A stretch of 42,384 nt of DNA from the NCBI GenBank assembly GCA_007745635.1, contig CP036272.1, positions 4,573,350-4,615,733 of the forward strand, written 5' to 3'. Shown in pieces: positions 1,556 to 41,378 of this stretch. A program made the translations under genes and the position numbers. The DNA is from Stieleria bergensis. Lineage in GTDB: Bacteria > Planctomycetota > Planctomycetia > Pirellulales > Pirellulaceae. The notes under the pieces are model-generated. The model searched no databases, was not told the DNA's origin, and saw only the letters and a program-made list of their open reading frames with translations. Positions within the stretch are counted from its first letter, which is position 1, and each line of letters starts with the position of its first letter.

Positions 1556-3739
1556 TTAGCTTTCTAAGTTCATTTCACCGGCGCTACAGACCATGGCCAC
1601 GCGAGGCAGCGAGCCGACCAGGGTTTCAATCCGCGTCAAGAATTCTGCGTCATCTTCCGGTTGAGGAATGGCAAAACCCAGGATCACAAAGGCTGCGTCG
1701 CGGCTGGTTTGGTGAATGGTCTTGATGGGGTCAGCTGAGGCTACCGCCTGAACATGACCGTTTAGACGAGCAGCGCTGAGCAACTGATTCAGGTGTTGCT
1801 GAACTTCTTCAGCGGCGGATTCGTTCTGAATCACTCTCAGTAATCGTAATTCACGGCCTCGCCAGGAGGGATGTGTCAACATTAAATGTGCCAGCAGAAC
1901 CATCAATTCGCCGTTGGCTCGCCCGCGCCACCAGACATCAATGGTGCCTTCTGGTGGCATTCCGTCAAGTTCCGGGTTATCGGTCTGTCGCAAGATGACA
2001 ATGCTGCGCTGCAATTTGGCCAGCCCTCGCAGCAGGGGGCAGAACACGGCCATCCGATCCTGTGACAGCGGACAGCCCATCAGCACGATATTGGGACGGA
2101 CTCTCCCCAGTCCCTGGCACTGGACCAAAGCCTGGACGCCGGCAGTGTAGTCATTCGCGATCAGGACGGCAGGAAACGCTTGCAACGAATGGTCTTTGAT
2201 CAGCGTATGGAGGATCTTTTCCTGATTGATCAGCCGCTCGGATTGGTCTTCCAGGTCACCCGGAACCACTTGCCCCAGCAGCAGCATGCCGGATTCCTGC
2301 GTCAGCCAGTTGCCAAAAATGACCAAATGGGGACGCGAGAAAGCGGTTCCCGAGAGCGCCAGCACAAAGGGCCTCCAGTTCTTGGGGTGGAACAAGCCGT
2401 CTTCCAGTTTCATCAAGTTGCGCCGCGTTCGTTCAAACAGCAGGCCACTATTGAGGTCTCCCCACTGCGCTTGCAGGTTTAGCTTGAGCAAATAGTAGTA
2501 CAGGCCGCTTAGCAGACAGGCTGCCAGAATCGCCCACTGCCAGTCAATCAGTAACATCACTGCAGCACAGCCGAGTGTCCCCAATGCACTGGTGTAGAGA
2601 TTGCTAAAGCGAAACGTCGGTCGGTAGCTAGGGTTCTTGGTGATTGTTTCATAGAACGTGGCCAAGTTCAGTAGGCCATACGTTAATAGAAAAGCCATGG
2701 TGATCAGCGGCGCGATGCTGTTGAGGTCCGCGGCCAACATGCCTGCTTGCGCGATCAAAGCTGTCGCGATAATCGCCCGTCTCGGCTCGCCATCTTGATC
2801 GGCAACGCCAAAGTACTTCAAGCGGTCAAACACCTCGTCGGCGGCCAGCGATTGCAGGATCCGCGGTGCGCCCATCATGCTGCCAATGGCACTCGATAAG
2901 GTTGCCGCAAAGACGCCCAAGGTGATCAATGCTTCTGAGGCTGAAATTTCGCTGACGACCAGATTGTTGCTGATCAATTGCTCGCGCGTTGCACTGGCAC
3001 CCAGCATAATCGCCATCGCGACATAGATGATCAACGTCGCCAAGACGGCCAGTAGTGTGCCGTTGGGAATCGCGACTTCCGGTTTGCGTAAATCACCGGA
3101 CATGTTGGCGCCGGCCATGATCCCTGTCACGGCGGGAAAGAAAATCGCAAAGATCAGCCAGAAGGACGACCCGGATTGGTATCCCGGCGCCCAGTTGTCG
3201 GTAAGAAGCTGCCAGGAGCTCGCTGGGATCGCGCCGGTAAAAAAGGCGACGAGCGAAAGCACCACCGACGCCAGGATCACGAACTGCACTTTGATCGCCC
3301 AGCCAGCACCGAGATAAACACAGCCGGCGACCGCCAAGTTGGTGATCGTTGCGACCAAGGCTGGCGAAGTGTCTGCGGGCAGAAACTGCAGCATCACTTC
3401 GGTAAAACCAATCACGTACATCGCCACCGACAAGGCTTGGGCAGCAAAGAACACCAAGCCAATCGCGCCACCAAACTCTGGGCCAAGGCTGCGACTGATC
3501 AAGTAATAGGCACCACCGCCTCTGACCCGTGTATTGGTTGCGATGGCTGAAAGCGACAGTGTCGTCAGTGTCGTGATCACTTTACTGATGATCACGATCA
3601 GCAAAGCGTTACGAATCCCAGCGTTGCCCACGACATAGCCGAAACGCAGGAACATGATGACGCCTAGAATCGTCAGCGCACAGGGCGTGAAGACACCGCC
3701 AAAGGTTCCAAATGCGTTTCCTTTTGGATTTTCTTTCAC
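1556..3739 (-). CDS. SLC12-like cation-chloride cotransporter / APC-superfamily permease
   Basis: A 727-residue transporter. The N-terminal half contains about 12 membrane segments and begins with a stretch typical of the Na-K-Cl/K-Cl cotransporter branch of the APC superfamily (GVFTPCALTILGVIMFLRFG), followed by RGGGAYYLISRSLGPEFGGA and GIMAGANMSGDLRKP. The C-terminal ~290 residues are soluble and cytoplasmic, again like the SLC12 layout. The likely role is coupled ion transport across the inner membrane, but an amino-acid substrate cannot be excluded from sequence. The kinase gene lies 71 bases downstream on the same strand. Eukaryotic SLC12 carriers are controlled by phosphorylation, so the pairing is suggestive, but nothing in the sequence proves a link. 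Confidence 0.88.
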   Translation of the reverse strand: MKENPKGNAFGTFGGVFTPCALTILGVIMFLRFGYVVGNAGIRNALLIVIISKVITTLTTLSLSAIATNTRVRGGGAYYLISRSLGPEFGGAIGLVFFAAQALSVAMYVIGFTEVMLQFLPADTSPALVATITNLAVAGCVYLGAGWAIKVQFVILASVVLSLVAFFTGAIPASSWQLLTDNWAPGYQSGSSFWLIFAIFFPAVTGIMAGANMSGDLRKPEVAIPNGTLLAVLATLIIYVAMAIMLGASATREQLISNNLVVSEISASEALITLGVFAATLSSAIGSMMGAPRILQSLAADEVFDRLKYFGVADQDGEPRRAIIATALIAQAGMLAADLNSIAPLITMAFLLTYGLLNLATFYETITKNPSYRPTFRFSNLYTSALGTLGCAAVMLLIDWQWAILAACLLSGLYYYLLKLNLQAQWGDLNSGLLFERTRRNLMKLEDGLFHPKNWRPFVLALSGTAFSRPHLVIFGNWLTQESGMLLLGQVVPGDLEDQSERLINQEKILHTLIKDHSLQAFPAVLIANDYTAGVQALVQCQGLGRVRPNIVLMGCPLSQDRMAVFCPLLRGLAKLQRSIVILRQTDNPELDGMPPEGTIDVWWRGRANGELMVLLAHLMLTHPSWRGRELRLLRVIQNESAAEEVQQHLNQLLSAARLNGHVQAVASADPIKTIHQTSRDAAFVILGFAIPQPEDDAEFLTRIETLVGSLPRVAMVCSAGEMNLES

Positions 3740-3877
3740 GGTTGATTCTCAGTCCAAATGACGCGGGCAGTCATCGCAACGGTCGGTCTCGCGCATGGTT
3801 CACCCATCGTGGCAGAGCCAAACACGCCGGTGACGGCACTCGCCGCTGCACGCCAGATGGTGAGGGTCGCAAGACGC

Positions 3878-6097: not shown

Positions 6098-9000
6098 ATG
6101 GCTTCAGTTCTTCCCTCGGCCTCAGCTGCTTCCTCTGACGGCGATGCAGCATTGGAAAAGGTCAACCAGCAACATGGCGTTGAATACGCCACCGAGAAAT
6201 TTGGCACGACGCTTCGCGGCGATCGTTCGGGGCTAAAAGTCAGCCCAACCTTCTGCCCGGCCGATGGCAACACGCCTTTCTCAACCACTCAGTGGGAATT
6301 GCGTTCGGCGGCGATCAAAGACGAGAGCGGCAAAGCGTTGTTTGAACAGAACAACTGCGAAGTCCCTGTCGCTTGGAGTCAGTTGGCGACCAACGTGGTG
6401 GTCAGCAAGTATTTCTATGGCGATCCCAGCAACCACGACGAGCGTGAGCGCTCGGTGCGTCAGTTGATTCACCGAGTCACGCGTACCATCGCGGACTGGG
6501 GTTTGGCCGATGGGTACTTTGACAGCCCTGAAGACGGTGAAAACTTCTATCGCGATCTCACTTGGTTGTGCTTGCATCAACATGGCGCGTTCAACAGCCC
6601 AGTGTGGTTCAACGTTGGATTGTGTCATCAGTACGGCGTGACCGGAGCCAAGTGCAATTGGGCTTGGGATCGCACCGATGAGGAGACCTTCCAGCCCGAG
6701 AATCCCTACGAGTTTCCTCAGGGCAGCGCCTGCTTTATTCAAGCGGTCGATGACAACATGGAAGACATCATGCGTCTGGCATGTGCCGAGGCGATGTTGT
6801 TCAAGTTCGGCTCGGGAACGGGGACAGACCTGTCGACCATTCGTAGTTCACGCGAGCGTTTGTCCGGTGGTGGAACGCCATCAGGGCCGTTGTCGTTCAT
6901 GCGAGTTTACGACTCGATCGCCGGCGTGATTAAGAGCGGCGGTAAGACGCGGCGTGCTGCCAAGATGCAGTCGCTGAAGATCTGGCACCCAGATATCTTG
7001 GAATTCATTGAATGCAAATGGGCTGAAGAAAAGAAAGCCCATGCTCTGATCCGTGAGGGTTACGAGTCGAACTTCAACGGTGAAGCGTACAGCAGCGTTT
7101 GTTTCCAAAATGCGAACCTGTCTGTCCGCGTGACCGACGATTTCATGGAAACCGTCCGCGATGGCGGCCGCTGGCAAACACGCTGGGTCTCCGATCGATC
7201 GGACGGCTCGCCACCGGATTACGACGCCAAAGAGTTGCTCAACAAGATGGCCGAGTGCGCTTGGCACTGTGGTGACCCCGGCGTGCAGTATGACACAACG
7301 ATCAACCGCTGGCACACCTGCCCCAACAGCGGCGACATCAACGCTTCGAACCCTTGTTCGGAATACATGTTCCTGGACAACACGGCTTGTAACCTAGCAT
7401 CCATCAACTTGATGAAGTTCGCCACCGATGACGGTGGTTTTGACGTCAAGCGATTCCGCGCTGCGGCTCGTGTGTTCTTCATCGCCCAGGAAATCTTGGT
7501 CGACCACGCCAGCTATCCAACCGAGCCAATCGCTCGCAACAGCCATCGTTACCGTCCCTTGGGACTGGGCTATAGCAACCTGGGATCGCTGGTCATGTCA
7601 CAGGGCATAGCTTATGACTCCAACGCTGCTCGCGGCTTGTGCGGATCGTTGACCGCGTTGCTGCACGGTGAAGCAAACCGCACCAGTGCGGAAATGGCCG
7701 GCGTCGTTGGTCCCTTTGACGGTTACAGCAACAACGAAAAGGCGATGCTGAACGTCATGCAGATGCACCGCGAAGAAGCGGACAAGATCAATGATGAAGG
7801 CCCCGCGGAACTGAAGCAAGCCGCTCAAGAGTTGTGGGACAATGTCCTGGACATCGGGGCTCGATACGGGTTCCGCAATGCTCAGGCAACCGTCTTGGCT
7901 CCCACCGGCACCATCAGTTTCATGATGGATTGTGACACCACGGGCATCGAACCCGACATCGCACTTGTGAAGTACAAGCAGCTTGCCGGCGGTGGGATGC
8001 TGAAGATTGTCAACCAGACGGTCGCAGCGGCATTGAGACAACTGGGCTACGAAGAGCAGCACATCGAATCCATTCTGGCGTTCATCGACCAGAATGACAC
8101 CATCGAAGGCGCACCCGGTCTGAAGACCGAGCACCTGTCGATCTTCGACTGTGCGTTCACTCCGGCCAATGGCGTGCGTAGCATTTCCTGGAGAGCTCAC
8201 ATCTCTATGATGGCTGCCGCCCAGCCCTTCCTGTCCGGGGCGATTAGCAAAACGGTCAACATGCCTAGCGATGTGACGCCAGACGACATCGCCGACGCCT
8301 ATTACTGGGGTTGGGAACTGGGACTCAAAGCGATTGCGATCTATCGCGATGGCAGCAAACAGTCCCAACCACTGAACACCAAGTCAGAAGGCGACGAAAA
8401 AGCAGAAGCCGAAACAGTGGTGACCAAGACGGTTGAAAAGATCGTTTACAAGCCACGCCGTGAACGGTTGCCTGATACGCGAACCAGCATCACGCACAAA
8501 TTCACCATCGCTGGTCACGAAGGTTACCTGTGCGTCGGGCAATACCCCGATGGACGTCCTGGTGAAGTCTTCATCACGATGGCCAAAGAAGGTTCGACCG
8601 TCGGCGGCATCATGGATAGCTTCGGCACCGCGTTGTCGATCGCTCTGCAATACGGAGTGCCTTTGGAAGTGTTGGTCAATAAGTTCAGTCACACCCGATT
8701 TGAACCCATGGGCCACACCAGCAATAAAGACATTCGCATTGCCAAGAGTGTTGTCGATTATATCGCCCGCTGGTTGGGGCTGACCTTCATGAGTGCCGAC
8801 AACTCGGTGGCCATGGCAGCTCCAGCGAGTGACCCGGTCAACAGCGGCAACGGGCCGGAGTTGATCGCACCGGAAGCACCGATCGAAGACATTGGAATCG
8901 CTGCCGCAGAGCGAGCGGAGATCATGTCTTCGTTGACCAATGGTGCTGCCAATGGCTCGCCCGCCAAGAAGGACAGTAACCGGCAAGATCAGTTTGCTCG

Positions 9001-9120: not shown

Positions 9121-10730
<1,610 letters not shown>

Positions 10731-22413: not shown

Positions 22414-22524
22414 GTCCGAAATCCGATTCAGGTTACTGGCAGGTTATGCCGATTATTCGGATTGTGGGACCAGATGCCGTTGGGGTCGCCACCCTTGCCA
22501 CCACCTTTACTCGGGCAGAAACCG

Positions 22525-24162
22525 ATGAATTCTTGCGATCAAGACTTTTCGCTCCCTCCATTTCCCTGTTTCCCAACCGCCAGTCGATTTGTTGCCGTTG
22601 GCTCCGTTGCCGATGCCTTCGCCCGCGTTCAGCGCAGCATTCAAGCCTTTGAACCTTTCTCAACCGTGATTGGCCCTCCGGGAACTGGCAAGTCACTGCT
22701 CTGCGAACTGGTGGCTGAACACTTCACCCCGCAAATGAATGTGATCTCGCTGGGCGACACCTCGCTGGCGACCACCGACGCATTCTTGCAGCGCATCCTG
22801 CACGCGTTCAACGCTCACCAGTCGATCGACGAAACGATGCACTTGGAACTCCAAGTCCACGATGCCCTGGTCGGTCGCAACGCCAATGGAAAACCCAACC
22901 TGCTGATCATCGATGAGGCAGACGACCTAAGCGTCCAGACTCTTGAAGCGATTCGCCGCCTGTCCAACCTACGACGTGCTGGACACCCCATGTTGTCCGC
23001 CTTACTGGCCGGCGGACATCGGCTAGAAGAAACGTTGATCGAACCTGCCCTCGAAGGCTTCGTCCAACGGATCGGCGCACGATGCTACTTGCATCCTTTA
23101 GAAGCCCAGGAAGTTCGACAGTACATCTACCAGTCGATCAGCAACTGCCATGCATCGCCCGAAGAGACGATCAGCGAAAAAGCAGTTCATGCCGTCACGC
23201 ATGCGACCGGCGGCATCGCTCGCTTGATCAATCAACTGATGACCGAGGCGATCGACTGTGCCGCGGAAGAGGAACTGACAAAGATCTCCCATCAGGTCGT
23301 AGAAAAAGCTTGGTCACGCCTGCAGCAATTGCCTGGCCCCATTATTGACGAACCCGAAATGTCCTCACCGGTGACCAACATCGAGTTTGGCACCGACCTG
23401 GACAATTTGGAACACTCGGCCTCCGACGAAACCGACATGGCCCCAGTCTTTGACAACCCCGAATCCACTTGGATGCCACCGGCGCCGATCGAGGAAACAG
23501 AGACTCAGGAATCGGCTGTTCTGGAAACACCGCCAGTAAAAGCCATTGACCCTGCCGAACTGTTCGGCCGCTTTGAAATCGAAGAAGCGATCGAAGTCAG
23601 CCACGTCGCGACCAGCCAGACCAAACTCACACCTGAGACCGCCCCTCAACAATCCGAACCCGAGCAATCGGAACCCGAGCAATACGTTGAAGAAGCGGAA
23701 GAATGGGAAACTGAGTTTGGCACGCTGGCTTCGGCAGAGACCACGGAAACATCCGCCGGCTCAATCGACACCCTAACCAACGAACCGATGCTGGCGATGG
23801 CCCACGACATCGAAGCGTCCCCCGTCCAGGAAGACGCTGTCGCTCAGGAAACCGTGCCAGCGCGGGAAACAGCAACCCGCCAGGACACAGTGGTTTGGAT
23901 GGACGAATCCCATCCCATCAGTGCTCCGGCGTTTCCGACCAGCAAGCCCAACCTAGAAACGGAGTCCTCAGAAGCCAGCAGCCCCAAGTTGGAGGTCGTT
24001 CGGGCCGACGACACGGACCTGCTGTGGGTGACAGAAAGTGTTGAAGTTGAACAGCGCACTCCGGCTGGATCGGTCCAGGACAGCACGCCGGACGACCAAC
24101 AAAACGCGATCGAGAAACTGCAATTCGACCATCGTGAAATCCTGCAGCGAATGCGTGGCTAA
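22525..24162 (+). CDS. ExeA-like AAA ATPase with acidic C-terminal tail
   Basis: 545 residues from the ATG at 22525. Residues 10-270 form an AAA domain of the ExeA/GspA type: Walker A GPPGTGKS at 50-57, Walker B LLIIDEADDL at 126-135, sensor-like SALLAGGHRLEETL, and a RIGARCYLHPLEAQEVRQYI stretch close to the ExeA second domain. The rest (275-545) is strongly acidic, Glu/Thr/Pro-rich and probably unstructured, with the end NAIEKLQFDHREILQRMRG likely helical. ExeA family ATPases help secretin assembly or peptidoglycan passage in type II secretion. No secretin gene is in the window, so the partner is unknown, and a role with the preceding membrane protein is inferred only from position. Confidence 0.85.
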   Translation: MNSCDQDFSLPPFPCFPTASRFVAVGSVADAFARVQRSIQAFEPFSTVIGPPGTGKSLLCELVAEHFTPQMNVISLGDTSLATTDAFLQRILHAFNAHQSIDETMHLELQVHDALVGRNANGKPNLLIIDEADDLSVQTLEAIRRLSNLRRAGHPMLSALLAGGHRLEETLIEPALEGFVQRIGARCYLHPLEAQEVRQYIYQSISNCHASPEETISEKAVHAVTHATGGIARLINQLMTEAIDCAAEEELTKISHQVVEKAWSRLQQLPGPIIDEPEMSSPVTNIEFGTDLDNLEHSASDETDMAPVFDNPESTWMPPAPIEETETQESAVLETPPVKAIDPAELFGRFEIEEAIEVSHVATSQTKLTPETAPQQSEPEQSEPEQYVEEAEEWETEFGTLASAETTETSAGSIDTLTNEPMLAMAHDIEASPVQEDAVAQETVPARETATRQDTVVWMDESHPISAPAFPTSKPNLETESSEASSPKLEVVRADDTDLLWVTESVEVEQRTPAGSVQDSTPDDQQNAIEKLQFDHREILQRMRG

Positions 24163-26941: not shown

Positions 26942-28261
26942 GCTGTGTGGATCTCTTTTGGGTGTCGTTGGAGGGAGGGTTGGCAGGTCAGGCGAGATTT
27001 CAGAACTGCAAAGTCGCTGTGAAGATGACTTCACCAATGACGCTGACGTACGGCCGCGAAGGGACACCCAAAATCCGAGGCCTCGCGAGTATAGATCACA
27101 GAAAAAGCCCGGTCAAAAATCGTTTGTTTGAGCATTCCGCGTCAGCCTTTTGATCGCTACCAATTAACACCTTGTCATCTGTTTACAGCGATTGCTCGGA
27201 TTGGACACGCAAAAAGTCACAACGTTTTTTTGGCGCCAAAGCCCGCTTTCCGATTGGCTGAAAGCAGACACGTTCGGCCAATGCAATCTGGATGCGCCAT
27301 CCCTGGGCAAGACACGACGTCTTTGTCGTGGTTGTAAGAATCATTCTCGTAACCGCTCGATCACGGTCTGATCACGGCCTGCCTGCCGCTCAGAGACTCC
27401 GTTGCCAAACAGCCAACGCGATGCCGTGGCATTAACGATGACTGCCAGACACCCCGACGCGAAGAACCAACGCAACTGACCAAGTTGATGCTGATGGTCC
27501 AGCGTGATGGAGCTGACAAACAGGACGCATCAGCCAACGGTTCGTCAGGAGCATCAAATGTTGTTGCCAACAAACATCATCAGGTGCAGCAATGGAGTCT
27601 CCATCACAATAACTGTGTCAGACGCCACTGGCCAATCCGAATGTCCCTTCCAAGCGACTCCCGCAAAGCGTTGATTGACAATAGAACCCAATAAAACCGC
27701 AATTTCCCTGCGATTCAAAGAGTTTCATCGCTGCCACTCAACCTCGCTCTAATCGTTGGACACCAAGGCAATCGCGTTTGCCAAAGAACCCTTCAGCACA
27801 CCGCGATGTGCATAACAAGACTGATAGGGGTGGCCGCTACAACCGGACTGCTTTGGGCAATTCCCAAGGTTTTGTCCACCGCTTTTGAAAACGTAAACAA
27901 TAGAAAGTCCGATAGCTGCTTATGTCACGCAACCGACCCAATTTAACGGACTGGGAATTGCGAGACCTTGGTCGCAGGACTCGACCATGACAGAAGGGTT
28001 CAATGCTGAGCCCTACCCGCCCATATCACCCCGCTTCAATTGCGAATGGATTCCAGCGGACGACACAGCCAACTGAGTCTCTCGGCACACAGAGATTCTT
28101 CACACGCTATCGTCTGACAATGCACCTGCTAAGGAACCGGTTTTGCAACTCGGTCTGTTATCAGACGGCTTGCAAATCCAACGCCCGAACCAGTGAAGAC
28201 ATTGTGATCAGGAAGATCCCTCCCAGCGATGAAGCATTCTATTGCAAGGAGTTTTGTCACG
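26942..28261. other. 1.3-kb intergenic region
   Basis: This spacer separates the divergent protease and acidic-protein genes. It has lower GC than its neighbours and short open frames without protein-like composition. Visible small features are a hairpin CACGAC-GTCTTT-GTCGTG (27313-27330) and a direct repeat GATCACGG near 27363-27381. I see no RNA gene, insertion sequence or convincing promoter. Confidence 0.5.
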
Positions 28262-31114
28262 ATGACAATCCCCAGCTCACTCAGGAAACGCGCTAAACGC
28301 ATTGCACTGTATTTGCTGATCGCAGCTTCTGGCACATCACTGACATCCCCTCTTAATGCCAGCGAGCCACACATTGAACTAGCCAGCCATGACAGTGTTC
28401 ATTGGTGCGGCTGGACGGTCGAAGAGCAACTCAATGCTGCTTCGAACACCCCCCCTCCCCAAATCACATCGACCGACGAAAAGCCGAACGCTCTGACAGC
28501 AAAGCAATCGGACGCCAACAACAAGACCGCCCCCTCGGTCATGGTTGTAAAGCAAGCCGAACTATTCGGTACGGTCAGCATGCCTCTGGTCTCGATCACC
28601 AAGAACGACGAACTACGCATCACCACCTGCAACTACGACAATTGGCTCAAGAACGTCTTGGCTTCTGTCCCCGGAGTCAACACGACCACCGAAGCGACAG
28701 ACCAAGACAAGACTGCCGGAGTCCTTCAAGCGGACGACGCCGAACTCGGCTCAGCAGTCGCCGACGAAAGCACCGCTGTTGCCGCCGTCGAAGACTCAGC
28801 CATGGACACCGAAGTGGCCGACGCGGAAGCCGCCGAGGAATTTGCTCCCAACGAAGCCGTCGCCAGCACCGACCAAGCTGAACGGGTCGATGACCTGGCA
28901 ATTGACGCCGTCGATGACCAATACTACAGAGACGCGTACGACGACGATGAGTACTACGACAATCAGTACTACGATGAAGATCGCTACTATCAAGAAGACC
29001 TCGTCGCCGAACCGTGGAACCCGGAATCACCAATCGCCGAACCGGAGATCACCGTTGCAAACGCTCCGACGGTTTGCACACCGGTTGATGACGTCCAACT
29101 GAGCGTCAATGGCGAACTGGCCGTCAACGGGCAAACCAACAACAGCCCCATGATTAGCGACACTCCAAGTGTTGACATGGCAACCCAACGTGCCGCCGAA
29201 GCCAGCCTGGACGCGGAAACCAACGTCACTGAAGTCGCTCTAGACGAAGCTCCCATCGACGCTGTCGCCGTTGAAACTGAAACCGTCGAAACCGAAGTCG
29301 CTGACGTTGAAATCGCTCAAGCCGAGACGACTGAAGCGGAAATCGACGTGGTGTTCGAAGAGCCCACTCTGTCCGACGCCGATCTTGATGCTGACCCAGC
29401 GATGGCAAATCTTGACGAAGCCGGACACTCTGTCCTGGCCGAATCGGCTGACGCAACGGAAGCAGCCCCAAGCATCACCGCAGAAGACGTCACTGCTGAA
29501 CAAGAGATCACGGCCACCGATGACGACTCCTTTGACCAAGTCGACGACGTCGTGATCACCCCGCCTGCAATGCAAGCGTCGGATGCCGAACAAGCGGAAC
29601 TCGCGGACAACAGCGACCTAATCCAACAGGTGGTGCAAGGTCCAGTTACCGCTGAGGGAACGCTTCCGATTCTGCTAGACGAAGTCGTCGTCAGCGATGA
29701 ACGAGCCGACAGCGAAACCGCGACCGATCACTCGGTGATTGACGAAACTCCTGCCGTCGTCAGCAGAACTTCGGACGAGTTCAACGAATGGCTCGCTTCA
29801 CTGGCCGTGGCCTCGACTCCCGGCACCATGTCCTGGATCGAACTGAGCGAGCCTCTGGCAGCGATCTACCAAGATGCCGTCGCTGAGGCCGATCCGGTCA
29901 GCCCAGCCGAATCAAGCGATGCCCTGGCCACCGTCGAACAGCCTGCTAAATCTCAGCCGGAACAAGACGCTCCCACCGCAGCGGACCTAGTGGGCAGCTC
30001 TGCTGTGATCGCAACCATCGAAGAAGAGTACCAACCTTACGATGTTGCCAGTGCTTCCGAACCAGAGGCCACCATCGCCCAGCTGGACACCACGCAACCA
30101 GCTGACTCGGATGTTCAAGCGATGCCGGAACAGACTAGCACGCCAGCAGACACCGAGCCCGAAGCTACCGAGCCCGAAGCTACCGAGCCCGAAGCAATCG
30201 AGCCTGAAGCAATCGAGCCTGAAGCAATCGAGCCCGAAGCAATCGAGCCTGAAGCAATCGAGCCTGAAGCAATCGAGCCTGAAGCAATCGAGCCTGAAGC
30301 AATCGAGCCTGAAGCAATCGAGCCTGAAGCAATCGAGCCCGAAAGCACCGAGACCGCGGCACCCATCACTGCGATCGACCGCCTCATCAATCCCGATCGC
30401 CCTTGGACCATTGACTCCTGCTGGGTCATTCGCCAACCGGGCTGGAGCGTTTTCCACCAAGAACCTCAGCCGCGGGCACTGACGGTGCTGAAAGCTGAGC
30501 ACAACGACGCGATCGCTGCGACCGAAAGCGGGGCGACCGAAGAGCAACCCGTCACAGCAGAGCCTGCCGCTGTCTTGCAAATCGCTGACGCCGCGGACAC
30601 TCCCCCGCTGCCTCAGTCTTTGGTGGGATCGGCTGACTGCCTGCTGGACCACTGGCTCTGGCAAGCTGACTTGTTGGCCCAAGACAACCCTTGGGTTCAA
30701 GAACTCTCCGACGCCGAGAATTTGGGTGCTGCCATCGTTCAGTTGTCAGATCGTTACACCACCGTCACCCAGGACGTGCTGACGGAGATCGCGACCAAGC
30801 TGCCTGCACCCGCTGCCAAGCCTGCTCCCCAGCCCGTGATGGTGCAAGAGTTAGCTGATGACGAGCAACGCATCGCAACCGCCGATGTGGAGCCAGCGAC
30901 TGAAGTGACGTCTACTGCCCCCGCAGCAGACGCGATCGTCACCGCACAAGAGCCTGTCGTCAGCACAGAAAATCAATTGCAACCCTATCAGGAGTTGCTG
31001 GACAACGTGATTGACGCCTCGAAGTTCTTGGTCGACGACATCCAGCGGCAAGCACAAGCGGCTGCCAAAGTTGCTGACTCGAGCGAAAACAGCGACAGCC
31101 AAACGCTGCGATAG
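28262..31114 (+). CDS. Large, very acidic exported protein with pentapeptide repeats
   Basis: 950 residues from the ATG at 28262, which has AGGAG ten bases upstream; an ATG at 28229 is an alternative. A signal peptide is clear ([20 protein letters not shown]). The mature part is dominated by Glu, Asp, Ala, Thr and Val and should be largely disordered with very low pI. A Tyr/Asp block follows near residues 220-245 ([20 protein letters not shown]). A 13-unit EPEA[T/I] repeat is at 30155-30349. Short Trp-containing motifs recur: [25 protein letters not shown], and two WxxxxxQPGW-like stretches. I do not recognise a family. It may bind cations or act in the cell envelope. The repeat could vary in length by slippage. 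Confidence 0.85.
30155..30349 (+). repeat. 15-bp minisatellite coding for 13 EPEAx units
   Basis: Thirteen in-frame units of 15 bases, each starting GAG: two EPEAT, ten EPEAI and a final EPEST. Most EPEAI units are identical (GAGCCTGAAGCAATC), the rest differing only at one synonymous C/T. Such near-identity over 195 bases points to recent expansion. Confidence 0.98.
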
Positions 31115-36032: not shown

Positions 36033-36960
36033 CTTCCTCCGGTCACCGCTTGACTATGCACCACAAGTTGACTCTCAACTGTGGTCACAAAGCCTGTTGA
36101 TAAGCCGCGTTATAACGTACTTTCTGGCAATGACTTACGTCGATGAATGATTGAGTGAGACTCTCTGAGTTGATCGCCACTCTTGATCACGGGCCGCTGA
36201 CTACCGCCAAAGTTCGAACTCCGGCACTCCCGCTCTCAGACTCTCTCCTGTTTTAGGCCGCATAAGTTAGCGATGTCGCGTTTGAGTGGTGCGGGTGAGA
36301 TTCGAACCCACGTCCGTGATGGAGTGACTCTGAACGAAATCCGAGCCTTAGTGTCGAACACTTAATCGCAAAAAATGGTGCAGCGGTGAAAGGACCGAAG
36401 CGACTTGGATGCAAGCCAAAATCTGGTAGGCCGATGCAACTTCCGCGCGTTCGCGGATGAAGAAGCATCGAAGATGCAGCCGATGTTCAAGCTGCCAATG
36501 GCTGCCGTCGCGCCCTTGTGCCTCTGTGAAAGCACCGGCCTGCCGCCGTTCTAACCATGTCAAGCTGAGGCGTGCCAACGATTTGTGTCAAAGTCGTGCG
36601 TTCAACCCTGAAAAAACAGAACGCTGTTTGGACTTTGCGTGATCACGGGCAATGCTACGATTCCAAGCAACAAGCCCACCGCCGAAAACGACGATGGGTT
36701 TGTTTGAAAAAAAGTCGGGGCGACTGGCGGTTGTTTGAACGAGTGGTGGTTGAATATGCGATGGTGTGCCTTGGCAATTTGCAAGACATCCTGCGAGTGT
36801 CAAGCCTCGGTCAGCGTGACAGTTGTCACGAGCTCTCGATAGCGCTTACGAGGTAGCCGCGTCTATGCGTATGAATCTGGCGGTGGAACCGGTCTGATGC
36901 TCCTCTGCCGCGAGACAAAAGGGCGCAAAGGCGGCCGCAAACAGGGCGAGATGAAGGTCG
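36033..36960. other. Non-coding region between tRNA-Arg and the DGR terminator
   Basis: About 930 bases without a convincing gene. It contains the orphan tRNA-like 3' end at 36287-36315 and the dyad CGTGACA-GT-TGTCACG (36815-36830). The open frames between 36250 and 36860 are short and have no protein-like pattern. Confidence 0.5.
36287..36315 (-). other. Orphan tRNA/tmRNA-like 3' end
   Basis: On the minus strand, GGAC precedes a T arm GTGGG-TTCGAAT-CTCAC, which is directly followed by a 7-base acceptor strand CCGCACC and discriminator A. This geometry is exactly that of a tRNA 3' half, and GGAC before the T arm is typical of tmRNA. No matching 5' strand GGTGCGG is found upstream, nor downstream as a permuted gene would need. 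It may be a remnant left by integration at the 3' end of ssrA or a tRNA gene, or the end of an unusual tmRNA. Confidence 0.4.
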
Positions 36961-37002
36961 AAAAAAAGCGGGCCAACCTTCGAGCAACGACGGTTGGCCC
37001 GC
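36961..37002 (-). terminator. Rho-independent terminator of the DGR operon/TR RNA
   Basis: On the minus strand, GCGGGCCAACC (36992-37002) pairs perfectly over 11 bp with GGTTGGCCCGC (36968-36978) around a 13-base loop, then seven T (36961-36967). It lies about 195 bases after the template repeat and defines the likely 3' end of the TR-containing RNA. Confidence 0.92.
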
Positions 37003-37197
37003 CCGTATTCCGTGCGGCCGCGCCTTTCATCGAAACGACTCGCCACCGCCGCACACCACCTTATTCGCCCACCGGCAAATTCGCCGGTGCGCTGGAGAAT
37101 CGGGTAGTCCCTGTGTGGGCACGGCCGCTGGAGCCGTTTTGACGACCCCAACGATTCTGGCCCAAACAGTCTGCTTCCACCGCACACCGTACCGGGG

Positions 37198-37316
37198 CTT
37201 GCGACGCGAAAACCGTTGTTGTTGTTCTCGTTCGCCGGGTTGTTGTCGTTCCGGTTCGACGACGACAAGTTGTTGGAGTTGTTGTTCCAGTTGCCGCCGC
37301 GGATCCCGCGATTCGA
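37198..37316 (-). repeat. DGR template repeat (TR)
   Basis: A 119-base sequence matched to the VR at 38953-39071. In the coding direction it reads as SSNRGIRGGNWNNNSNNLSS and continues with many AAC codons, the classic adenine-rich TR. It differs from the VR at about 26 positions, 25 of them adenines in this strand. It begins 32 bases after the reverse transcriptase stop. The frame across it is open for ~200 codons, but this reflects the repeat, and no gene is called. The shared 3' end GGTTTTCGCGTCGCAAG is the likely IMH* region. Confidence 0.96.
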
Positions 37317-37348
37317 CGAACCCTTGATCCCGATTCCCCTCCCTATCG

Positions 37349-38389
37349 TCAGCGGCTCAACACCGCTCGACGTAGACCCACACTTTGCGCATGTTTTGTA
37401 TGTGCCACCCACGCCCGCACGCTCGTGGTCAAAGTTGATGCGGGCAATCGCCCCTGTCCCACCTCCCAACGCATGGCTCGGAATTTCGCCTGATACCGAC
37501 GAGCCGTTGCGGCTCGAACCCGGATACGACCGTCCCTGCGGACTACGAATCCGACGAAGTCGACACCGCTACGAGTGTGCAGCAAACGATACTTGTCGGG
37601 ATGCATGCACAAGTGCAGCGATGCGAGCTTGTCCTTGACACGCTGACCCTGCTCTTTCAATCGCCGACGATCATCACCGAAAAGCAGGAAATCGTCCAGG
37701 TAGCGGAGGTAGCCTTTCACTCGCAGTTCGTGCTTCACGAAGTGGTCGAGCGCGTCTAAATAAACATTCGCCAGGAATTGGCTCGTCAGATTTCCAATCG
37801 GCAATCCACACTTGTGGAGCCGCACATCGAACAAGTCGCCGCCGCTGGACCATTCCTGCCGCACACGGTCGTGATGCGTCTCCAACACCTTCGTGATCAG
37901 CACCAACAGACGATCGTCGCCGATCACCCGACTGACCAAGGACATCAGGACGCCATGATCGATGCTGGGGAAGTACTTCTGTACATCGCACTTGAGGGCG
38001 TAATCAAATCGCCGGGTGAATTGCGAGGCCCGACGCATTGCCGCATGCGTTCCCTTACCGGGACGACTGGCGTACGAATCTTCAATGAATCGCCGCTCGA
38101 AAATGGGCTGGATGACTCGCACAATCGCATGATGCACCACTCGGTCCCGAAACGGTGCGGCCGCCACCAATCGCTCTTTTGGTTCGTGGATCCGGAAATA
38201 GTGGTACTCGCCGGGACGATAAACCTCGCCCGATAGTTCCGCTTGCAGATCGACCACCTGCCGCTCCAAATCTGCGTAGAACGATGCGCCGGGCTCACGC
38301 CAACGTTTTCCTCGCAAGGCTTCACGGGCGGCAGCCAGCACATTCTCAAACGAAACAACTTGCTCAAACAGATGTTTGTGGCGGTGCAT
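37349..38389 (-). CDS. DGR reverse transcriptase
   Basis: 346 residues from the ATG at 38389; a GTG at 38398 would add three. It copies TR RNA into cDNA with adenine-specific errors. Motifs, numbered from the GTG: RFIEDSYASRPGKGTHAAM (motif 2 region), catalytic Asp138 in LKCDVQKYFPSIDH, IGNLTSQ at 201-207 (the DGR signature in motif 4, where retrons and group II introns have QGxxxSP), catalytic YLDD at 233-236, and GVDFVGFVVRRDG near motif 7. The C-terminal thumb ends with SVRAWVAHTKHAQSVGLRRA, as in other DGR enzymes. Length and motifs are complete, so activity is likely. It overlaps avd by 26 bases. Confidence 0.96.
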   Translation of the reverse strand: MHRHKHLFEQVVSFENVLAAAREALRGKRWREPGASFYADLERQVVDLQAELSGEVYRPGEYHYFRIHEPKERLVAAAPFRDRVVHHAIVRVIQPIFERRFIEDSYASRPGKGTHAAMRRASQFTRRFDYALKCDVQKYFPSIDHGVLMSLVSRVIGDDRLLVLITKVLETHHDRVRQEWSSGGDLFDVRLHKCGLPIGNLTSQFLANVYLDALDHFVKHELRVKGYLRYLDDFLLFGDDRRRLKEQGQRVKDKLASLHLCMHPDKYRLLHTRSGVDFVGFVVRRDGRIRVRAATARRYQAKFRAMRWEVGQGRLPASTLTTSVRAWVAHTKHAQSVGLRRAVLSR

Positions 38390-38750
38390 CTCCGACACTT
38401 TCCTTGCTGGATGATTGCTTCCACCAGCCGCCGACCATTCGACCGCATTCGGTCACGCCCCGGCAACTGAACTCATATTGCTTGCCGCTGAGCAGGTTTC
38501 GCTCTTGGGCCAGCCGTAACAGCCAGCGGAGCATTTCGATCTTTCGGTTGGCGGTCGCTAACAAGTCCGACTTGCGGCGACTGTAGGCCGCCTCCACCAA
38601 CAATTCCAGAATGTCCAAAGCGTGATCCGTTAGTCGCTGCCCGAAAATGAATCGCTGATTCTTCGGGAAACCATCAACGCGATCCAGCAACCACTTCGTG
38701 AAATCGTACCACTTGATCAGAACCACCGGTGGGTCGGTCGGCTTCGCCAC
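38364..38750 (-). CDS. avd: DGR accessory variability protein Avd
   Basis: 128 residues from a GTG. It is a small, helical, positively charged protein of the Avd/four-helix-bundle family: VVLIKWYDFTKWLLDRVDGF, PKNQRFIFGQRLTDHALDIL, LVEAAYSRRKSDLLATANRK and CGRMVGGWWKQ follow the order of the four helices. In Bordetella phage BPP-1, Avd forms a pentamer that binds the reverse transcriptase and TR RNA and is essential for retrohoming. It lies between the target gene and the reverse transcriptase and overlaps the latter, the standard order. The C-terminal ~20 residues are disordered. Confidence 0.92.
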   Translation of the reverse strand: MAKPTDPPVVLIKWYDFTKWLLDRVDGFPKNQRFIFGQRLTDHALDILELLVEAAYSRRKSDLLATANRKIEMLRWLLRLAQERNLLSGKQYEFSCRGVTECGRMVGGWWKQSSSKESVGDAPPQTSV

Positions 38751-38798
38751 GTCACACAGTTCCCGCGTCCAACGACCATTTCAATTTTCAAAATCGCG

Positions 38799-38815
38799 CG
38801 CCGCCTGCGGCGGCG
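38799..38815. promoter_or_regulatory. GC-rich hairpin between target gene and avd
   Basis: CGCCGCC-TGC-GGCGGCG is a perfect 7-bp stem with a 3-base loop, 35 bases after the target stop codon. DGR retrohoming in BPP-1 is helped by a GC-rich hairpin just after the VR. Here the distance to the VR end is about 137 bases, longer than in BPP-1, so it could instead slow transcription between genes. Confidence 0.5.
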
Positions 38816-38849
38816 AAGAAAAAGGATAAAAGGAAAAAAGAGAAAAGGG

Positions 38850-39821
38850 TTATTTCCTCGCCCGCCTTCTTCGGTAACACAAACCGCCTACACAAATCGC
38901 GCTCCACACGACCAGCGAACCGGGCTCTGGCACGGTGGCGGGAGAGGAAAGACTTGCGACGCGAAAACCGACGCTGATGAACCCGCCCGCCGGGTCGGAG
39001 TCGGCCCAGAACGACGACGACAAGAAGACGGAGTTGCCGTCCCAGAAGCCGCCGCGGATCCCGCGATTCGAGGAACCTGTACTGTTGCTCAGGTCAACGC
39101 TCGTTTCTTCCCATTCAGACACATTGCCCCCCAAACCCATGATCCCAAACGGACTCAGCCCGCCTGCCTGAGTGATGTCCGCCGGGCCTTGCGCCAAGGT
39201 GAACACCGCCGTGTTGTCAGCCGTGCCACTGGACACGGCGGCCGGCACACTGCCAGTCAAGCTGGGATAGTCCCCATACACTCCTGTATTCGGATTGTAG
39301 TACGCCGCCTTGTACCACTCGTCCAAGCTCGGCAGCCAATAGTGGGCGTCCTTGTGACGGTAAAGATTCTGACCGCCCAGTTGCCAAGCCTCGCCGGAAC
39401 TCCACACGTCAATATTGTTGTTCACGACGCTGGTGGTGAAGTTATAGGCCGCCTGAAATCCCTGGCTGGTGTTCAGCCAGTTCACAAATCGAGCCGCTTC
39501 ATTCCACGACACATACGTCACTGGCTTGTTCGGCCCGCGCGTGTCCGTCGTGATTGTCAACGATTGTGAGTCATTGAACTTTGTGAACATGTCTTCGCTG
39601 ACTTCATACTTCCCCATCTGGTAGGTGTACTCGACCTTGCCAGCGGGACTCGGATAGCCCGTCAAATCGTCCGCGTTGCCGGGACTGCCGATCTCGACGA
39701 ACGTCATTTCGAACTTGTTGGCACCACTGCCAAAGGTGATCACACCGGCATCGGCTTGCGGAGTGACGAGAAGCGTCAAGAAGCCGGCAGAGGCCAGTAG
39801 TCCAATGGAGATGCGTCGCAT
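38850..39821 (-). CDS. DGR target: secreted FGE-fold protein with VR and PEP-CTERM tail
   Basis: 323 residues from the ATG at 39821; an upstream open extension lacks a signal peptide. A signal peptide occupies ~1-25 (SIGLLASAGFLTLLVTPQAD). Residues 27-290 are of the formylglycine-generating-enzyme/SUMF1 family, a C-type-lectin-like fold: YQMGKYEVSEDMFTKF, PVTYVSWNEAARFVNWLN, YWLPSLDEWYKAAYY, GIMGLGGNVSEWEE, RGIRGGFW and GFRVAS. The variable region covers about 250-290. A PEP-CTERM sorting signal ends it: VPEPGS at 297-302, a hydrophobic stretch and RRRRARK. Thus the variable lectin-like face is exported and processed by an exosortase, which must be encoded elsewhere. No catalytic Cys pair of true FGE is visible, so the role is binding, not sulfatase maturation. 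Confidence 0.94.
   Translation of the reverse strand: MRRISIGLLASAGFLTLLVTPQADAGVITFGSGANKFEMTFVEIGSPGNADDLTGYPSPAGKVEYTYQMGKYEVSEDMFTKFNDSQSLTITTDTRGPNKPVTYVSWNEAARFVNWLNTSQGFQAAYNFTTSVVNNNIDVWSSGEAWQLGGQNLYRHKDAHYWLPSLDEWYKAAYYNPNTGVYGDYPSLTGSVPAAVSSGTADNTAVFTLAQGPADITQAGGLSPFGIMGLGGNVSEWEETSVDLSNSTGSSNRGIRGGFWDGNSVFLSSSFWADSDPAGGFISVGFRVASLSSPATVPEPGSLVVWSAICVGGLCYRRRRARK
38953..39071 (-). repeat. DGR variable repeat (VR)
   Basis: A 119-base match to the TR at 37198-37316, inside the target gene. TR-encoded Asn codons are replaced here by Phe, Asp, Gly, Val, Ala, Ser and Ile; flanking and G/C-only codons are unchanged. The 3' end (coding strand) GGTTTTCGCGTCGCAAG is identical to the TR and is the likely IMH. 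The only difference at a non-adenine within the core is at 39008 (Arg codon in TR, Trp here). Confidence 0.96.
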
Positions 39822-40580: not shown

Positions 40581-41378
40581 TCAGGAAAATCCCACATCGA
40601 GAACCGTCTCAAAGCCAATGAAACCAGCGACGTAGGGTGCAGACGCAGGGTGCCGTGTTTGCACCACTGCTTTGAACATCTTTGGATAGTCTGTTTTCGC
40701 GTTCAGAATCTTGTGCACGGATTTTGGACGCTTTTTGGTTTTCCGCTTCTGCGGCTTACGTTTCTTGGAATTCGTCGATTTGATCCAGAAGTCGTTCCAC
40801 CGTATTCGTAGCAACTCATGCAGATGCTGCTGAGAAGCCCCTGCGTTTCGTATCGGAACGAGTGTCTCGATATCAAACGTTGACAACAGAACTTGCCAGG
40901 TGACTAGTTCGCGCTGGACATCTTTGAACAGTTTCTCAATCGAAACCATCTCCGTTTCTCGGTCTTGATGCCCAGCAATGTAGCTGCGTAGAAGTTGCAG
41001 TTGATTGTAAAGCAAAAGGCAAATTGCAAACTGAAACAAACCTGCCTGAGGTGTACTTCCGATCAAGTTCTTGAGACTAAACACCTCGGTGACCTTTTGG
41101 AAGACACGCTCAATCTCCCAACGCTCTCCATAGAGATACAAAAGATCGGCAGCTGGATATTTGCGAACGCCAAAAAGCTCCGTTACGATCGATAACTCCG
41201 CACCATCATCAAGCTCGAGCGTGATTCGTCTGACGTAGCATTGATTCTTGTTGGAGTCAGCTCCCAGCCACCCACACTCATCAGCGTCTAGCAAGGGTGC
41301 GTCCCCGTCTAGCAAGGGTGCGTCCCTATTGGGGGAGGACGCTGCTAGCGGCCTGGGCAAGTTGGGTGGGGCTGGCAA
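40581..41378 (-). pseudogene. 5'-truncated IS4-family transposase
   Basis: The last ~230 residues of an IS4-type DDE transposase: DDGAELSIVTELFGVRKYPA, the Y-(2)-R-(3)-E-(6)-K signature in YGERWEIERVFQKVTEVFSL, and GLFQFAICLLLYNQLQLLRS. The N-terminal part with the first two catalytic Asp residues is missing. The open frame continues upstream only through a short direct repeat (41286-41326) and Pro-rich non-homologous sequence to 41378. The frame is otherwise undamaged to its stop, so truncation is by deletion or insertion at about 41285. It cannot be active. Confidence 0.85.
41286..41326. repeat. 21-bp direct repeat at the broken end of the IS4-type gene
   Basis: GTCTAGCAAGGGTGCGTCCC occurs at 41286-41305 and 41307-41326, identical and one base apart. 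It marks the place where transposase homology stops. A partly inverted block (GGACGCTGCTAGCGGCC) follows at about 41336. Confidence 0.9.

Follow-up and report, generated by a model that had tools for sequence, protein, structure and literature searches.

The 42,384-nt stretch of the Stieleria bergensis (Pirellulaceae) genome analysed here (CP036272.1, positions 4,573,350 to 4,615,733; hereafter the window) carries a diversity-generating retroelement (DGR). The genome comprises 7,107,266 bases in one contig. The sequence-only reading of the window had placed all DGR parts in one minus-strand unit followed by a terminator, and this description holds: the target gene with its variable repeat (VR), avd, the reverse transcriptase (RT), the template repeat (TR) and the terminator form a single complete unit within 36961-39821 (Table 1). 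The target gene runs from an ATG at 39821 to a stop codon at 38850-38852, and the list of open reading frames (ORFs) has a longer version of it from an upstream GTG. The terminator has no entry in the terminator scan, whose loop limit was 8 against the 13-nt loop found here.

Table 1. Features of the DGR and its target gene, in window positions (IMH, initiation of mutagenic homing)
Feature	Positions	Strand	Description
Intrinsic terminator	36961..37002	-	11-bp stem GCGGGCCAACC/GGTTGGCCCGC, 13-nt loop, seven T; read by eye
Template repeat (TR)	37198..37322	-	125 nt; repeat comparison
DGR reverse transcriptase	37349..38398	-	349 aa, GTG start; IGNLTSQ, YLDD; family matches and trees
avd	38364..38750	-	128-aa ORF, GTG start, overlaps RT start; NF033474, PF22296, PHROG 3206
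Hairpin CGCCGCC(GCA)GGCGGCG	38799..38815	-	between target stop and avd, 137 nt past VR; candidate retrohoming cruciform
Target gene	38850..39821	-	323-aa FGE/C-type-lectin protein; PF03781; best profile and fold match TvpA 2y3c
DNA for PEP-CTERM-like tail	38853..38952	-	34 residues after VR; first codon straddles VR end
GGTTTTCGCGTCGCAAG, candidate initiation site (IMH)	38953..38969	-	3' end common to TR and VR; coding
Variable repeat (VR)	38953..39077	-	125 nt; repeat comparison
Apparent signal peptide	39747..39821	-	~25 residues; translation read by eye

TR and VR are copies spaced 1755 nt apart that differ at 27 positions, 25 of which are TR adenines and two of which are not. Counted in frame, the template base is changed at 25 of 36 adenines and at 2 of 87 other bases (p 2e-15). 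No second VR was found in the 7.1-Mb genome, where the next DNA match has an E-value (E) of 0.24. A paralogue of the target in the same genome (G000:C1:2534047) shares its architecture, and was rejected as a recent VR because, ungapped, it matches the TR at no more than 63 of 125 positions.

The RT matches PHROG 1423 'Reverse transcriptase' at E 1.2e-112, and its best sequence match in the Protein Data Bank (PDB) is 8ub7_A (E 3.4e-44), from an entry that also contains Avd. The motif IGNLTSQ (37778-37798) fits the (I/V/L)GxxxSQ form described for DGR RTs (PMC3521204), its I, G, S and Q being invariant columns in an alignment of seven RTs, and YLDD follows at 37691-37702. Avd exceeds the cut-offs of both NF033474 (101.7 bits; cut-off 80) and PF22296 (62.3 bits; cut-off 40). 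Two trees, a quick one with 96 RTs and a careful one with 47 from which some rows of the larger set were dropped, both group the RT among DGR RTs, with group II intron RTs apart at support 100 and 100/100, respectively; the RTs were drawn from search hits rather than a census. A group II intron, or another RT beside a chance repeat pair, would be consistent with the 139 bits that the RT scores with TIGR04416 (group II intron RT/maturase), but this lies far under the model's cut-off of 300. Avd, the SQ motif, the adenine bias and the tree make this explanation vanishingly improbable, and tree, cut-off and bias together rule out a group II identity for the RT.

The sequence-only reading had named two outcomes that would count against it, an RT outside the DGR clade and a repeat pair lacking adenine bias. 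The RT lies inside the DGR RTs in both trees, and the bias is strong. With the gene content, these results bear out its description of a machine for targeted protein hypervariation, as a prediction from sequence; the DGR is real, complete and probably functional. As a separate observation, the genome (G000) holds ten group II intron-type RTs with near-equal scores and open frames of 543 aa.

The nearest comparison comes from the Rhodopirellula metagenome-assembled genome MED661 (locus L045), which belongs to the same family and to another genus. All 16 of its VR/TR mismatches fall at adenines. Its TR and that of the window differ inside the repeat at two non-adenine positions, offsets 46 and 124 of 146 aligned nt, and at both the MED661 VR has the letters of its own TR, while the window VR has those of the window TR. 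A third difference, at offset 137, falls past the end of the shared repeat, and the VR lacks it. This is the pattern predicted if TR had been copied into VR since the two lineages split, seen at two markers in the comparison with MED661 only; recombination between VR and TR would give the same picture at both sites.

An alternative is that the DGR was recently silenced, so that VR and TR reflect past activity only. Such silencing would be compatible with the two non-adenine mismatches in the window VR, with a simple scan that found no sigma-70-like promoter (other promoter types lay outside the scan) and with avd remnants beside orphan targets in relatives. Against it, every reading frame is intact, an adenine-rich TR is retained, and RT and Avd are conserved relative to MED661, with 9 of 348 and 1 of 128 residues different. 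We consider silencing unlikely, and the unit may well be transcribed and active in this strain at present.

RT matches at E 1e-60 or better occur in 36 of 392 genomes of the phylum, and matches at E 1e-40 in 40 of 241 genomes of the family, the latter including group II-like RTs as judged by length and score. The careful tree puts the window RT in a clade of 15 rows (support 100/100) comprising the window, L045, L307, L328, L331 and L377 from its own family; L047, L049, L168 and L209 from other Planctomycetota; L046 and L048 from Verrucomicrobiales; and L054, L060 and L061 from viral contigs. Of 13 relatives in the same genus, only G011 yielded an RT match at E 1e-40 or lower; its DGR (L042) was rejected as kin, being of another lineage with three VRs on other proteins. 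A single 1155-aa protein contains two of these, and the third belongs to an FGE protein encoded separately, after the TR (L042, 1314-7438), and the preceding ORF (234-1313) looks AAA-ATPase-like by eye. Elsewhere, one single-contig genome (G356) contains two DGRs with near-identical RTs (L177 and L180). In a same-family DGR (L375 in G483, 3074-3830), the TR immediately precedes the RT, an order unlike that of the window, and the VR measures 158 nt.

The target matches the FGE-sulfatase family PF03781 at E 1e-15. Its best profile match is Treponema denticola TvpA (E 6e-15), which is also its best PDB fold match, and the model places a helix at residues 301-321, within the C-terminal tail. Together with PF03781, the profile and fold matches to TvpA and to FGE, the fold ones resting on a weak model, put the VR within a predicted C-type-lectin fold domain.

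The window VR does not end its target gene, a point absent from the sequence-only reading. One hundred coding nucleotides separate it from the stop codon, and with the straddling codon they specify a 34-residue tail (SLSSPATVPEPGSL...RRRRARK); the DNA immediately past the VR is therefore coding. A tail is present in nine of the 11 clade loci with a visible target end (window, L045, L047, L054, L061, L168, L209, L307 and L328), L328 being counted from its tail only because its VR is off the contig; the target end is not visible in L049, L060, L331 and L377. All nine tails show PEP, a hydrophobic stretch and a basic end. Five score above the 16-bit cut-off of TIGR02595 (L047 21.8, L054 19.1, L168 18.2, L209 25.8 and L061 27.4); L045 and L307 gave no TIGR02595 rows, and L307 gave weak rows of other PEP-CTERM families. 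The S. bergensis genome has two exosortase matches (TIGR02602) above cut-off, as compared with none in 14 control genomes.

To place this tail among DGRs at large, adenine-biased pairs were tallied (90 VRs at 74 loci). Eight VRs are tailed by the literal PEP pattern and none of the other 82 is, and a PEP-CTERM-like tail after the VR was seen in this tally only in the RT clade of the window. The remaining VRs end within 30 nt of the stop (55), at 31-90 nt (12) or beyond 90 nt (15, some being tandem VRs and some perhaps frame errors). Because these other VRs can also lie far from the stop, internal VRs are not unique to the clade. The tail was accordingly rejected as the sole kind of internal VR, other Planctomycetota DGRs having VRs distant from the stop. 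The idea that a PEP tail is exclusive to DGR targets was likewise rejected, since FGE homologues without a recent VR signature are also tailed.

A C-terminal VR is described as near-universal and explained by a need for non-coding cis elements downstream (PMC8144416). Phage DGR hairpins are reported 4-34 bp past the VR with 7-10 bp stems and GRNA loops, and longer VR-hairpin spacers lower BPP-1 function (PMC3240598). Seven of the nine tailed clade loci have a hairpin at +109 to +146: the window and L045 at +137 (loop GCA in both), L307 at +138 (GTA), L047 at +114 (GTA), L168 at +109 (GAA), L054 at +122 (GTTA) and L328 at +146 (CTTG). Six of the nine have a G..A loop, and G..A-loop hairpins arose in 0-1 of 200 shuffles of the seven hairpin-bearing tailed loci. 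A hairpin nearer the VR was sought in the tailed loci and rejected, there being no perfect stem of at least 7 other than one in L209 at +50 with a non-consensus loop. Of the tail-less loci, L048 has a hairpin at +41 and L046 none. Outside the clade, a G..A-loop hairpin occurs within 260 nt at 21 of 65 DGR loci, lying at up to 70 nt in 14, at 71-100 nt in two and beyond 100 nt in five, so hairpin distance varies elsewhere too. Folding of the first 80 nt past the VR gave z values of -1.97 in the window, -0.27 in L307, 1.67 in L054 and -0.07 in L168. Either the clade DGRs function with a displaced hairpin, or the hairpin serves another task.

The candidate initiation site GGTTTTCGCGTCGCAAG and the bases next to it are coding here, unlike the published non-coding expectation. 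The last five VR codons and the first 12 tail codons are kept at the DNA level, unlike the rest. Between the window and L314, identical codons make up 40 of 80 identical residues in the N-terminal part and 15 of 16 at the VR end and tail start; other pairs show less of this contrast or none, for example the window and L251 (69 of 153, then 3 of 7), and recent transfer of the segment could be an alternative cause. An 18-nt motif at the VR 3' end is present in 47 of the 241 genomes of the family; since the same bases encode the GFRVA that is conserved in the domain, its occurrences were not taken as a count of VRs. Since the clade departs repeatedly from the C-terminal-VR rule (PMC8144416), it offers a natural test of the requirements for initiation site and hairpin.

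We consider it very probable that the locus is a complete DGR diversifying a lectin-like target that is likely exported and surface-sorted through the PEP-CTERM-like tail. RT and Avd would produce a copy of the TR RNA that carries errors at adenines, and this copy would overwrite the VR of the target gene. The protein, presumably binding a ligand through its variable domain, would be exported and then sorted to the cell surface by means of the tail encoded after the VR. In this clade, retrohoming would initiate at a site probably within sequence that also codes the tail start, with the hairpin, if used at this distance, past the stop codon.

Several results weigh against parts of this interpretation. 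The fold model of the target is weak (mean predicted local distance difference test 63, predicted template modelling score 0.67). Two of the 11 clade loci, L046 and L048, lack a tail, their targets ending two residues past the VR. The window tail reaches 9.7 bits with TIGR02595 (L328 13.6; cut-off 16), and the window tail taken by itself gave no match to any model. The window hairpin departs from the published phage pattern in distance (+137 vs 4-34 bp) and loop (3-nt GCA vs 4-nt GRNA; PMC3240598); L061 has no hairpin and L209 none at the common place; and a hairpin beyond 100 nt was rejected as a specialty of the clade, as five of the 65 other loci have one.

Because its score is below cut-off, the window tail is named PEP-CTERM-like only, which it is by apparent descent and pattern, not by score. 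The description of the target as a host surface-type protein fits, in that an apparent signal peptide, the FGE/C-type-lectin domain and the tail speak for it, but these are sequence signals, and the tail is under the cut-off. The DGR could instead be an ordinary cellular one, with a tail that is a C-terminal membrane anchor or a chance extension unrelated to exosortase sorting or retrohoming. The low score, the non-terminal VRs of other kinds in Planctomycetota DGRs (for example L042, L197, L378 and L387) and the distant hairpins outside the clade would fit such an account. However, five of nine tailed loci score above the TIGR02595 cut-off, the genome has two exosortases, and the three-part pattern recurs in nine of nine tails, which leaves this alternative improbable.

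The comparison with MED661 further suggests that the DGR has moved. In 100-nt windows from 38900 to 37101 the two loci are 90-100% identical, as against 63-92% from 39700 to 39101, the N-terminal part of the target, and similarity declines beyond the TR. Protein identity is 97% for the RT, 99% for Avd and 75% for the target; for NtrC, the single control gene, the best match has 64%. Third codon positions differ at 3 of 128 in avd, 37 of 348 in the RT gene and 78 of 247 in the N-terminal part of the target. This profile appears to be best accounted for by a core that was transferred recently, with a breakpoint close to the VR. Given a near-identical copy in another genus and relatives beside phage head genes, the DGR machinery seems to have moved between hosts; the tail-to-TR block likely passed horizontally between genera, with phages as a plausible carrier.

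On the three viral clade contigs, portal, head-protease or major-head genes stand shortly after the DGR, and two of the contigs encode a tailed target. Their clade RTs are what would favour a prophage remnant at the locus, in which the DGR once served a phage. In S. bergensis itself, a PHROG scan of 19 flanking ORFs (12 in the window and seven in the next 19 kb; some window ORFs were outside the scan) matched no head, tail, connector or lysis family, and the neighbours are two-component genes and an IS4 fragment, followed beyond the window by esterase, radical SAM, PSD1 and DUF1501 genes. A prophage remnant is thereby made very unlikely. The earlier statement that no phage genes are near and that the DGR is cellular agrees with the scanned ORFs, but the viral contigs among its kin mean that the RT lineage is not purely cellular.

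Two window ORFs matched PHROG transposition families, namely transposase and DNA transposition protein (9549-10730 and 22462-24162, both on the plus strand). An IS4-family transposase fragment, below its model cut-off, lies upstream of the DGR (40581-41378, minus strand), and a 961-aa ORF (28229-31111, plus strand) has no Pfam or PHROG match. A weak tmRNA match (36284-36347, minus strand; 14.8 bits, gathering 47) received no ARAGORN call. L045 has a second region (6115-6391) that matches part of the stretch from a tRNA-Arg to this tmRNA-like place. Island edges at this site were considered and rejected: besides the locus itself, a search of the genus matched only the tRNA part, 90 bases at the start of the 671, and no empty site was shown.

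Related genes also occur apart from any RT. A pattern search of 241 family genomes retrieved 38 stretches, yielding four clade RTs (L306, which is the contig of L045, L307, L328 and L331) and many tailed targets with no RT in the stretch. Beside orphan targets L317, L323, L325 and L335 stand avd pieces only, and the avd of L324 runs off its contig; the genomes of orphans L308 and L329 also hold a clade DGR. Twenty-two VRs (three with their own TR adjacent, 19 orphans) were compared with the best of five TRs, and all differ more at adenines (p 2e-15 to 0.023), with difference rates of 0 to 37% at non-adenine bases. The weaker orphan cases prove little, because lectin loop codons vary anyway. 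Two look freshly templated from their mismatches: L312 (G017) against the MED661 TR (24 of 37 adenines, 1 of 86 other bases) and L322 (G525) against the L328 TR (18 of 35 and 1 of 88). No clade RT was found in G017, where several VRs lie at contig ends and a DGR may therefore have been missed; the only DGR RT of G525 lies outside the clade score range. Three of 15 tested orphans retain a hairpin at the common place, with other loops, and L335 has one as well. The orphan VR genes could hold a record of past diversification.

A broader hypothesis, which we put forward tentatively and hold to be somewhat doubtful, takes the segment that starts at the VR 3' end and includes tail, hairpin, avd, RT and TR to be a mobile cassette for diversification, which phages would carry between planctomycetes and related organisms. 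The cassette would latch onto resident secreted lectin genes by recombination inside the VR and confer both hypervariability and a surface-sorting tail. Retrohoming would then start in coding sequence more than 100 bp from the hairpin, and decay of the cassette would leave families of frozen lectin variants.

Our analysis thus points to DGR hypervariation linked to an exosortase-type sorting tail, and reveals a DGR core common to two genera at near identity. The literature search turned up no paper in which DGRs are paired with PEP-CTERM, exosortase or sortase, and none on DGRs together with Rhodopirellula. In the literature searched, no report was found of the arrangement predicted for this clade, in which the VR of a lectin precedes a sorting-type tail and a hairpin lies beyond the stop codon. 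Among known systems, the closest to the target is TvpA, which we take to be a DGR-diversified FGE-type C-type lectin; it is the best profile and fold match, yet it has 17% identity to the window target in the fold alignment. Like PEP-CTERM/exosortase substrates, the target combines an apparent signal peptide with a C-terminal PEP, hydrophobic helix and arginines, in a genome with exosortase, but its tail follows a DGR variable region and scores below the model cut-off. The DGRs of multicellular bacteria similarly place the VR in an FGE-type C-type-lectin domain (PMC10907252). There, this domain forms the C-terminus of NACHT, STAND, kinase and vWA-type conflict proteins, whereas the window target is small, likely secreted and extended by a tail after the VR. 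The BPP-1 DGR (Mtd, Avd, Brt) shares with the window the RT, Avd, TR, VR, adenine-specific differences and a GC-rich hairpin past the VR. Its TR lies between avd and brt, whereas the window TR follows the RT; and its VR ends the target gene with the hairpin 4 bp away (PMC3240598), in contrast to the coding tail and 137-nt spacing of the window.

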